This document shows, piece by piece, positions 14,110-15,678 of a DNA stretch of 48,344 nucleotides (position 1 is the first letter of the stretch; every line of letters starts with the position of its first letter). Location of the stretch: NCBI RefSeq assembly GCF_002530675.1, contig NZ_PCMX01000034.1, positions 1 to 48,344 on the forward strand, written 5' to 3'. Under the pieces are notes generated by a model. The model was not told the DNA's origin. It saw only the letters and a list, made by a program, of their open reading frames with translations, and made no database searches. The position numbers and the translations under genes were made by a program. Origin of the DNA: Flavobacterium columnare NBRC 100251 = ATCC 23463. GTDB taxonomy: Bacteria > Bacteroidota > Bacteroidia > Flavobacteriales > Flavobacteriaceae.

Positions 14110-14703
14110 TTATAATTCTTCTGAAATATTAACTTTATTTATAAAATCTATCAATTTTCTAACCGCTTTTGCTCTATGACTTATTTTTGATTTCTCTTCA
14201 AGCGTCATCTCAGCAAAAGTATTTTCATATCCATCAGGAATAAAAACAGGATCATATCCAAACCCATTAAGCCCTTTTTGTTCAAACGCTATTTTTCCAT
14301 CTATCGTCCCTGTAAACAAAAACTGTTGATCCTTTAAATTAAGTGCTATAACCGTTTTAAAGTTAGCTTTTCGATTCAGCTCTCCAGACAATACATTTAA
14401 CAGTTTGTCTATATTCTTTTGATCCTCTTTTTCTTCTCCAGCATATCTTGCAGAAAAAACCCCCGGTTCTCCATTAAGAGCCTCCACTTCTAGCCCACTG
14501 TCATCAGCAAAACAAGCATATCCATAATGTTGAGTAACATAATCTGCTTTAATCCGCGAATTTCCTTCAATAGTCGTAGCTATCTCTGGAATATCAACTA
14601 AACAGTTGATATCTTTTAAACTTAATATTTGAATATTACTAGGAATTAACCTTTGGATTTCCTTTATTTTATTTTGATTGTTTGAAGCAAAAACTATTTT
14701 CAT
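14110..14703 (-). CDS. rdgB: Non-canonical purine NTP pyrophosphatase RdgB/HAM1
   Basis: RdgB hydrolyses dITP, ITP and XTP to the monophosphates and keeps deaminated purines out of DNA. Using the ATG at 14701-14703 the product is 197 residues, the usual size, and begins MKIVFASNNQNKIKEI with the family's N-terminal nucleotide-binding motif (S/T-x-N-x-x-K). The core is FADDSGLEVEALNGEPGVFSARYAG (about 68-92 in part), then GFGYDPVF and the C-terminal SHRAKAVRKL. The open frame extends 30 codons further upstream, but that extension is hydrophobic, lacks family similarity and runs into the dyad of the adjacent RNA gene, so I reject it. Confidence 0.96.
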   Translation of the reverse strand: MKIVFASNNQNKIKEIQRLIPSNIQILSLKDINCLVDIPEIATTIEGNSRIKADYVTQHYGYACFADDSGLEVEALNGEPGVFSARYAGEEKEDQKNIDKLLNVLSGELNRKANFKTVIALNLKDQQFLFTGTIDGKIAFEQKGLNGFGYDPVFIPDGYENTFAEMTLEEKSKISHRAKAVRKLIDFINKVNISEEL

Positions 14704-14746
14704 CTTTGTTTTTTTAAAAAAAAGCAAGATACTATAATTTAAAATA

Positions 14747-14798
14747 AATTTTAACATAATGTACGGAAAATCCATAACAAAATTAATATTCAACCTCT
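14747..14798 (+). promoter_or_regulatory. Conserved upstream region and dyad of RNA gene A
   Basis: The region begins with AATTTTAACATAAT, identical to 15066-15079. A dyad TACGGA-AAA-TCCATA (14762-14776, one mismatched pair) is centred at 14769, about 42 bases before the predicted transcript start. The copy before RNA gene B has the same position and a compensating base-pair change. No -33 TTTG is present, so the dyad may bind an activator that replaces it. Confidence 0.5.
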
Positions 14799-14806
14799 TA
14801 CCTTTG
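14799..14806 (+). promoter_or_regulatory. -7 promoter box of RNA gene A
   Basis: TACCTTTG is an exact TAnnTTTG. The copy at 15118-15125 is identical and 319 bases away. It predicts a transcript start near 14811-14813, at the conserved word CGTTCTTAATCAA. Confidence 0.65.
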
Positions 14807-14810
14807 GAGC

Positions 14811-15037
14811 ACGTTCTTAATCAATTAAAACAAACTAAATTTTTAAACGAATTTTTGATAAAGTAACTACTGACTATATTTTGTATTTTTAATTGGGTAA
14901 TTTTCTTAAAAATTTTCTATTGATTAGTAGAAAAACTACAACTTTATCTTATTTTTTTGTTTTTGGGAGATATACAATTATCGTTTAAAAATTTATCTAA
15001 AAAACAGCTGTGTAATGTTTTACACAGCTGTTTTTAG
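14811..15037 (+). ncRNA. Candidate structured non-coding RNA, copy A
   Basis: The predicted transcript of about 225 nt has no open frame conserved with its tandem copy. Its structure reads as follows. The closing stem AAATTTTTAAACGA (14837-14850) pairs perfectly with 14981-14994. Inside it GATAAAGT (14857-14864) pairs with 14941-14948, and CTACTGACTA (14867-14876) pairs with TGATTAGTAG (14921-14930) using two G-U pairs and one mismatch. An apical loop holds ATTGGGTAATTTTCTT (14892-14907), and an asymmetric 3' internal loop contains TTTTTGGGAGATATA (14960-14974). It ends at a 15-bp terminator hairpin (15001-15034). A long rod with a large internal loop and a size near 200 nt recalls 6S RNA, but homology is unproven. 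Flavobacterial Rfam families such as Flavo-1 are alternatives. Confidence 0.7.
15001..15037 (+). terminator. Intrinsic terminator of RNA gene A
   Basis: AAAACAGCTGTGTAA (15001-15015) pairs perfectly with TTACACAGCTGTTTT (15020-15034), loop TGTT, followed by T. Its sequence is unrelated to the terminator of RNA gene B. Confidence 0.85.
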
Positions 15038-15065
15038 TTTTAAGCAAATAGAATTTAAAAAAACG

Positions 15066-15117
15066 AATTTTAACATAATATGCGGTAAAACCGTAACAAA
15101 ATCAGATTACAGTTATC
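15066..15117 (+). promoter_or_regulatory. Conserved upstream region and dyad of RNA gene B
   Basis: It starts with the same AATTTTAACATAAT as copy A. The dyad CGGT-AAA-ACCG (15083-15093) is centred at 15088. Compared with copy A, the innermost pair changed from A-T to T-A, so symmetry is kept although the sequence differs. The centre is 30 bases upstream of the -7 box, about -42 from the predicted start. Confidence 0.5.
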
Positions 15118-15125
15118 TACCTTTG
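15118..15125 (+). promoter_or_regulatory. -7 promoter box of RNA gene B
   Basis: TACCTTTG, an exact TAnnTTTG, 319 bases after the copy A box. It shows that RNA gene B can be transcribed separately from A. Confidence 0.65.
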
Positions 15126-15129
15126 GGGT

Positions 15130-15350
15130 ACGTTCTTAATCAAGTAAACAAACTAAATTTTTAAACGAACTTTAGATAGAGTAAGCTACTAACCATGTTT
15201 TGTATTTTTATTGGGTAATTTTCTTCACAAAGTTTTATTGGTTAGTAGAAATGCCATGACTTTATCTTTTTTTTGTTTTTGGGAGATATAAAATTATCGT
15301 TTAAAAATTTATATTTGAGAGGTTATCTATAACAAGATAACCTCTTTTTT
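15130..15350 (+). ncRNA. Candidate structured non-coding RNA, copy B
   Basis: The tandem paralogue of copy A, about 220 nt. The closing stem (15155-15168 with 15297-15310) is identical to copy A. Next come AGATAGAGT (15174-15182) with ACTTTATCT (15259-15267), one G-U pair, and CTACTAACCA (15186-15195) with TGGTTAGTAG (15239-15248), perfect. Two of the three differences from copy A in this stem keep pairing. The apical ATTGGGTAATTTTCTT (15210-15225) and 3' loop TTTTTGGGAGATATA (15276-15290) are invariant. Stem TTTTGT/ACAAAG below the apical loop is possible here only. It ends in a different terminator. The only short frame (from ATG at 15195) is absent in copy A, so the product is RNA. Confidence 0.7.
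15317..15350 (+). terminator. Intrinsic terminator of RNA gene B
   Basis: AGAGGTTATCT (15318-15328) pairs with AGATAACCTCT (15335-15345), loop of 6, followed by five more T. Strong and clearly oriented to the plus strand. Confidence 0.85.
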
Positions 15351-15678
15351 ATTTTATGCCATCATTAAAAAACAATTCTAAATTAACTTTAAAAAATTAA
15401 ACAAACCCCTTCTTTCTAAAACAGTTCATCAAATCAAAATCCTCATTTTAAATTACTAATAAAAGTTTTAAAATTCTTCTTTTTTCTTTTCAAAACATTC
15501 TTTTTCCCCTTTTCTTTTGATGTATCTGAATCACAATTCTCATTGCTCCTTCTATCTTTCAATGTTTCACAAACAAATAATACAAAGTTCATCCCCATAG
15601 CAATGCAAATGACACGAAATACAATCAATTCATATTCAGATCAAAAAACAAAATATTTTTCAAATTATTATTAACTCA
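15351..15678. other. Intergenic region between RNA gene B and repeat R2
   Basis: AT-rich DNA with no supported gene. A 61-codon minus-strand frame (15443-15628) has low-complexity, Lys-rich composition, no recognisable domain and no promoter box before it. I treat it as chance. Nothing else is visible. Confidence 0.5.

Follow-up and report, generated by a model that had tools for sequence, protein, structure and literature searches.

Layout of the locus

The window (the whole 48,344-nt stretch analysed, contig NZ_PCMX01000034.1 of Flavobacterium columnare NBRC 100251) contained two alike units at 14750-15035 and 15069-15350, adjoining a Ham1-family (rdgB-like) gene. The units are copies of a predicted structured RNA family absent from Rfam, no family of which reached its threshold in the window. 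This would be a new family of small RNAs (sRNAs), likely serving as output of a two-component system that may sense peptides. Each unit comprised a dyad, a Bacteroidetes-type -7 box TACCTTTG, a 25-nt leader, a 14-bp closing stem (P1), two inner stems (P2 and P3), and a terminator, along with a large apical loop and a U-rich 3' internal loop. Over the body, copy 2 was 84% identical to copy 1 (E 2.7e-68). The features of the locus were as follows:

14110..14703, minus strand: Ham1-family (rdgB-like) gene, conserved neighbour of the RNA locus (Pfam Ham1p_like, 2e-66)
14750..14780, plus strand: candidate operator 1, TTTAACATAATG-TACGG-N5-CCATA, dyad centre about -42 from the inferred start (pattern search, spacing test)
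14799..14806, plus strand: -7 box TACCTTTG of RNA 1 (sequence; TAnnTTTG consensus)
14811..15035, plus strand: predicted RNA 1, ~225 nt, running from a start inferred by way of the -7 box to the terminator (covariance models R1 and R2, fold)
14811..14835, plus strand: RNA 1 unpaired 5' leader ACGUUCUUAAUCAA..., nearly invariant
14837..14850, plus strand: RNA 1 P1 5' strand, pairing with 14981-14994, the P1 3' strand (fold, comparison of copies)
14857..14864, plus strand: RNA 1 P2 5' strand, pairing with 14941-14948 (comparison of copies)
14867..14876, plus strand: RNA 1 P3 5' strand, pairing with 14921-14930 and enclosing the apical loop that bears UUGGGUAAUUUUCUU
14959..14973, plus strand: RNA 1 conserved 3' internal-loop element GUUUUUGGGAGAUAU
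15000..15035, plus strand: RNA 1 intrinsic terminator (fold)
15069..15099, plus strand: candidate operator 2 (pattern search, spacing test)
15118..15125, plus strand: -7 box TACCTTTG of RNA 2 (sequence, spacing test)
15130..15350, plus strand: predicted RNA 2 (fold, covariance model, covariation)
RNA 2 stems: P1 15155-15168 with 15297-15310; P2 15175-15182 with 15259-15266; P3 15186-15195 with 15239-15248
15317..15346, plus strand: RNA 2 intrinsic terminator (terminator scan)

A sequence-only reading of this DNA had placed every element of the two units at a constant offset of 319. This held for the operators (14751/15070), TACCTTTG (14799/15118), and the inferred start sites (14811/15130), but not further 3', where small indels shifted the offset to 318 and then to 316. 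Comparison of both units bore out that their terminators are unrelated in sequence and that they share no reading frame; the longest ATG frame in the RNA bodies was none in copy 1 and 11 aa in copy 2. The terminator scan called the second terminator (1 found against a shuffle mean of 0.1), while the first (15000-15035) went uncalled, though plain in the fold. A sigma-70-type promoter scan, which does not cover Bacteroidetes promoters, gave one site, below shuffles. Phage and plasmid collections gave no match, and an origin from either was rejected.

Copies and distribution of the RNA family

Using covariance model R1, built from three copies of the home genome (RNA 1 included), 25 copies were counted at nine loci in five genomes: four in the home genome, four in G262, four in F. 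davisii, five in F. covae, and eight in Flavobacterium sp. H122, the last three having been matched by a pattern scan of named genomes. Of the four home copies, two form the window pair; the other two lie together on a different contig, between transketolase and aminotransferase genes. A 26th copy adjoined rdgB in a sixth genome, G061. The Ham1-family neighbour was also found by Pfam in G061 and H122. In G262, F. davisii, and F. covae it was judged solely from how the protein sequence begins. With 24 further copies, five other genomes represented, and the covariation described below, the proposal of two paralogous structured RNA genes, each having its own promoter and terminator, was upheld.

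A quick tree, some nodes of which were weak, showed columnare-group copies clustering mostly by position and not by genome, so that most paralogues of this group appear older than its species. The H122 array consisted of eight head-to-tail units spaced 312-315 bp apart (L110 6240-8680). Frames of 71-97 aa in this array were unconserved in the window copies, and a small open reading frame (ORF) within the RNAs was rejected as a candidate. The array units were near-identical, suggesting recent unequal exchange or gene conversion. The second F. davisii locus (L151 6416-6650) held a single shorter copy resembling a fusion of its relatives' two copies, and an apparent insertion-sequence remnant was seen by eye beside the second home pair (L018 8850-8960).

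Fold and covariation

Single-strand folding gave z = -5.4 for copy 1 and z = -4.9 for copy 2, with 0 of 200 shuffles folding as well for either copy. The 14-bp stem P1 was as proposed from the letters, perfect in both copies, and each minimum-energy fold contained it. Stems P2 and P3 were likewise pairable in both copies, the differences being G-U or complementary changes. Copy 1, however, paired this region differently in its minimum-energy fold, so these stems rest on comparison of the copies. The centroid fold of copy 2 contained both. All three stems formed unaided in the minimum-energy folds of three copies that had no part in building R1: one from H122, that of G061, and F. covae copy 4.

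Presence in relatives and covariation in the stems, two of the checks set by the sequence-only reading, both came out in favour of the RNAs. In an alignment of 24 distinct rows that was fitted to the structure, 92.0% of 749 cells paired and 25 of 32 pairs carried double-sided changes, compared with 14.8 in shuffles (0 of 500 reached 25) and at most 7 in slid controls. Between H122 and the c1-c3 types, the leader was 96% and GUUUUUGGGAGAUAU 97% identical, against 48% for paired columns; the exposed segments thus seem to be held constant by selection, with the stem sequences free to drift as compensated pairs.

Operator-like dyad and promoter spacing

The dyad ahead of each RNA was present as first described, but its operator-like sharing with a two-component system had been missed. 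At three or fewer mismatches the dyad-block pattern occurred in seven places in the home genome, four at the RNAs and three elsewhere, and its reversed control in none. Among 398 Flavobacterium genomes, 69 contained the dyad, a count that includes an unsubtracted, probably coding, class of the form TTTACATAATTTTCGGTAAAACCGTGA; the reversed control gave at least one genome (G111) among the matches listed. The five TTTACATAATTTTCGGTAAAACCGTGA-form matches seen had similar flanks and probably belong to one conserved coding sequence.

Spacing was measured on 90 distinct dyad sites from fetched loci. The exact motif TAnnTTTG stood at offset 48 in 41 of these sites (at most 4 sites at any other offset), and in 72 when one mismatch was allowed (next best, 14). 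Exact motifs were found at 22 of the 23 distinct RNA sites and at 19 of the 67 others. TAnnTTTG is described in the accessible part of PMC9723704 as the sigma-A -7 consensus of F. psychrophilum, located at -12 to -5. If that box holds here, the dyad centre would lie near -42. The dyad, with its rigid spacing to a promoter-like motif, behaves as an operator-like site.

At three other places (G209, L132 5097-5400; G001, L069 3974-3790; G061, L066 2487-2690) the dyad preceded short stretches without a long ORF that ended in a terminator-like hairpin; these may be further sRNAs under the same regulator, either unrelated or strongly diverged. A variant dyad, TACAG..CTGTA, was found in G187 (eight sites), G314, and G193 (L133-L142), and several of its sites preceded genes whose products begin like lipoproteins or secreted proteins.

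Candidate regulator, kinase, and peptide precursors

In 19 of 25 genomes, the fetched site loci included a homologue of a single response regulator of ~217 aa; this is a raw tally from a non-random sample, as loci were fetched for holding sites. The gene order site, small peptide gene(s), tetratricopeptide repeat (TPR) kinase, regulator was found in 11 of these 19, usually with a phosphoesterase gene on the opposite side of the site. As judged from sequence, dyad, peptide gene, kinase, and regulator are thus co-located in many Flavobacterium genomes. A second dyad behind the regulator gene (L123 8315, L129 7790, L121 4752) preceded a ~103-aa protein with hydrophobic stretches; the single relative submitted to Pfam (L126) had no match there.

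The regulator matched Pfam Response_reg; Pfam itself gave no GerE hit. A profile of the regulator matched full-length NarL (4-204, 1.7e-10), RcsB, and VraR, and a structural model (pLDDT, the per-residue confidence score, 91; pTM, the predicted template-modelling score, 0.70) matched, among others, RcsB bound to the rprA promoter. With a receiver, a C-terminal LuxR-type helix-turn-helix (HTH), and likeness to NarL along its length, the protein was assigned to the NarL/FixJ family. Among 16 aligned regulators only that of G187 had D for E in SxxEKRK, at what we take to be a base-contacting position in NarL, and in this one case the same genome carried TACAG..CTGTA sites in place of the usual TACGG..CCGTA. 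The NarL-type regulator likely binds the dyad. The kinase contained TPR, HisKA_3, and HATPase_c domains and an apparent membrane segment. In G262 and H122 the kinases were in two pieces each, possibly through sequencing error, and the regulators in one.

A precursor of 55-89 aa was encoded upstream of 16 of 18 kinases (exceptions, G118 and G376). By eye, the precursor N-termini were hydrophobic and resembled signal peptides or those of lipoproteins; the one precursor scanned matched the Pfam lipoprotein signal LPAM_1 (2.7e-4). A profile of eight precursors recovered 63 homologues, of which 57 ended in [KRT]KP followed by no more than three residues (EIDPIVMPKKP is an example) behind a variable middle; the profile held that end, so some bias is possible. 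An alternative end, DNGDxxLPKPP, accompanied four distant kinases (G033, G024, G239, and G153) that were 34-39% identical to the G061 kinase. The peptides are small and probably secreted. A variable middle, a conserved C-terminus, and a gene beside a TPR receptor are marks of pheromone precursors, and all three were found. Precursor and kinase together are built like a pheromone peptide with its TPR receptor, and may act as such. Searches of open-licence PMC papers for quorum sensing or signal peptides in Flavobacterium and Bacteroidetes brought up, among the listings and abstract openings, no description of a system built this way.

Proposed circuit

We consider it probable that a TPR-kinase signalling system, acting through a dyad-bound NarL-type regulator, has these paralogous predicted sRNA genes as its regulatory output in several copies. 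This would place the RNAs at the end of a cell-to-cell signalling circuit. The kinase would sense the conserved peptide C-terminus through its N-terminal TPR part, which is probably periplasmic. The phosphorylated regulator would then bind the dyad centred near -42, the position of a class II activator, and turn on both the RNA genes and its own peptide gene, the latter as a positive feedback. The last steps are the least certain. The RNAs may act in trans, with the exposed, nearly invariant 5' leader, and perhaps also the GUUUUUGGGAGAUAU loop, pairing with target mRNAs; the stems may hold leader and loop segments single-stranded and stable; and copy number (1 to 8) may set RNA dose.

A bolder version is offered only tentatively: flavobacteria would have peptide-pheromone quorum sensing, relayed by these RNAs in the columnare group and H122 in a manner like that of the Qrr sRNAs, without Hfq. 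Secreted precursors ending in (E/D)IDPIVMPKKP-like or DNGDxxLPKPP-like sequences would be sensed by periplasmic TPR kinases of matching specificity, the precursor gene would be under feedback from the NarL-type regulator, and the signal would be passed on through as many as eight tandem sRNA genes.

Several results weigh against the proposed circuit. Within the RNA family, the minimum-energy fold of window copy 1 was without P2 and P3, and the leader of the fourth paralogue was divergent (62%). The G061 copy scored just 17.9 bits with R1 and 16.5 bits with R2, and was assigned by its synteny, the spacing of its promoter, the way its leader begins, and how it folds; 27 of 43 R1 matches (at or below 21.6 bits, the G061 place at 17.9 among them) and all six matches of one R2 search had been discarded as chance. 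By R1 and by R2 alike, the family was found in at least 3 of the 398 genus genomes (the home genome, G215, and G262), a lower bound as the search missed the G061 copy, and was rarer than the dyad. On the signalling side, the regulator was not seen in the fetched site loci of 6 of the 25 genomes, and the sampling of those loci bears on all such tallies. The home regulator gene was frame-shifted in its receiver domain (G000 contig C153, L070 8274-7622), a region through which 16 aligned homologues read, so the pathway may be off in this strain, or the assembly may be wrong. As to trans action, leader-antisense sites numbered 51 against 53 for the reversed control in the home genome, 28 against 71 in G262, and 65 against 51 in G215, with no excess over the three genomes taken together, and a duplex scan of fetched 5' regions gave no convincing duplex. 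None of 4 genomes gave an Hfq match (the control was positive in 5 of 14).

Two further pairings were set aside. The one strong leader duplex (-25.4) was trivial, as its partner upstream of rdgB is the complementary strand of the RNA gene, and a leader AAACAAA/loop UUUGUUU pseudoknot, seen by eye, is of low complexity and is not claimed.

Alternative explanations

The RNAs might sequester an RNA-binding protein, like CsrB or RsmY, in place of pairing with mRNAs, the GGG-bearing loops and leader serving as binding sites and the tandem copies raising the titre. GacA controls rsmY/Z, and a possible NarL-type control here would be alike; multicopy arrays, conserved unpaired GGG elements, and the lack of enrichment of leader-antisense sites also fit. 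The family carries one long invariant leader, however, and not many repeated short motifs, and CsrA was matched in 0 of 4 genomes tested (control positive in 3 of 14). Sequestration is a serious but rather unlikely alternative.

It is less likely still that the dyad is bound by another regulator, or is a repeat or recombination site, its nearness to TPR kinase and regulator being secondary. The six genomes with sites and no regulator in the fetched loci point this way, as does the TTATGTTAAA half, which on the other strand resembles a XerD arm. Against it stand the single fixed offset to TAnnTTTG, the flanking of the regulator operon itself by sites at conserved positions, and the coincidence of dyad variant and regulator HTH variant in G187 (one case). 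A Xer/dif-like dyad, prompted by TTATGTTAAA, was set aside on the fixed promoter offset.

A repeated cassette with no function in trans, multiplied by unequal exchange, would suit the near-identical tandem units of H122, but this reading is very improbable given the mostly positional clustering of columnare-group copies in the quick tree, weak nodes included, and the maintenance of stems by compensatory change.

The sequence-only reading had likened the units to 6S RNA, duplicated as in Bacillus and binding RNA polymerase, on account of size, a rod shape with a large internal loop, and independent promoters; we give this hardly any credence, since neither unit matched RF00013 or RF01685 at E<=10, 6S-Flavo (RF01685) matched another locus of the home genome (C148, 77.1 bits, E 4.6e-13, below the 85-bit cut-off), RF00013 found nothing in the home genome at E<=0.001, and copy number ranges from 1 to 8 per genome. 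Its other suggestions, Flavo-1 (RF01705) and Bacteroidales-1 (RF01693), also fell away: RF00013, RF01685, RF01693, and RF01705 were all missing from the 22 matches to E<=10 in 14680-15450.

Significance and comparison with known systems

Cell-to-cell signalling is little understood in this phylum. If the circuit of peptide, TPR kinase, NarL-type regulator, and sRNA is true, signal peptide, receptor, operator, and sRNA output would all be open to direct testing in the group to which the columnaris fish pathogens belong, and there would be an sRNA family apparently working without Hfq or CsrA. The rdgB locus also presents a natural copy-number series (1, 2, 3, and 8 RNA genes) for the study of sRNA dosage.

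Among described RNAs of Bacteroidetes, 6S-Flavo (RF01685) and Flavo-1 (RF01705) are structured (PMC2864571, as far as its accessible part goes), as the units are predicted to be, but their models do not match the units. Rfp18 of F. psychrophilum is reported as an sRNA with a strong predicted fold, conserved beyond its species and with a homologue expressed in F. columnare; by description it resembles the units, and that description, in the accessible part of the source, mentions neither a tandem array nor a shared dyad (PMC9723704). Expression of the present RNAs may already have been published, because an RNA-seq study of F. columnare reports, in the part accessible, candidate sRNAs (PMC5395568).

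The best reading of the RNAs, by analogy, is Qrr/RprA-like in logic. RcsB-RprA and GacA-RsmY/Z, where a NarL-family regulator activates sRNA genes, share with the present case a response regulator of NarL type, a dyad upstream, and sRNA genes that sometimes occur in several copies. The differences are that Hfq and CsrA were unmatched in four genomes, that the RNAs match no Rfam family, and that a TPR kinase and a peptide gene stand where those systems have RcsC or GacS.

The Qrr sRNAs of Vibrio quorum sensing occur as 4-5 siblings in some Vibrio and use sigma-54/LuxO and Hfq. The shared trait is a set of sibling sRNA genes, numbering 4-8 in the columnare group and H122, that may lie downstream of a phosphorelay for cell signalling; here the regulator is of NarL type, the promoters are sigma-A-like, and the four genomes searched gave no Hfq match.

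In PlcR-PapR and Rap-Phr, a small exported precursor with a conserved C-terminus adjoins a TPR receptor, and the present systems likewise place a small precursor with a conserved C-terminus beside a TPR receptor. Here, however, the receptor would be a histidine kinase with a TPR part and an apparent membrane segment, the setting is Gram-negative, and the precursors look like lipoproteins.
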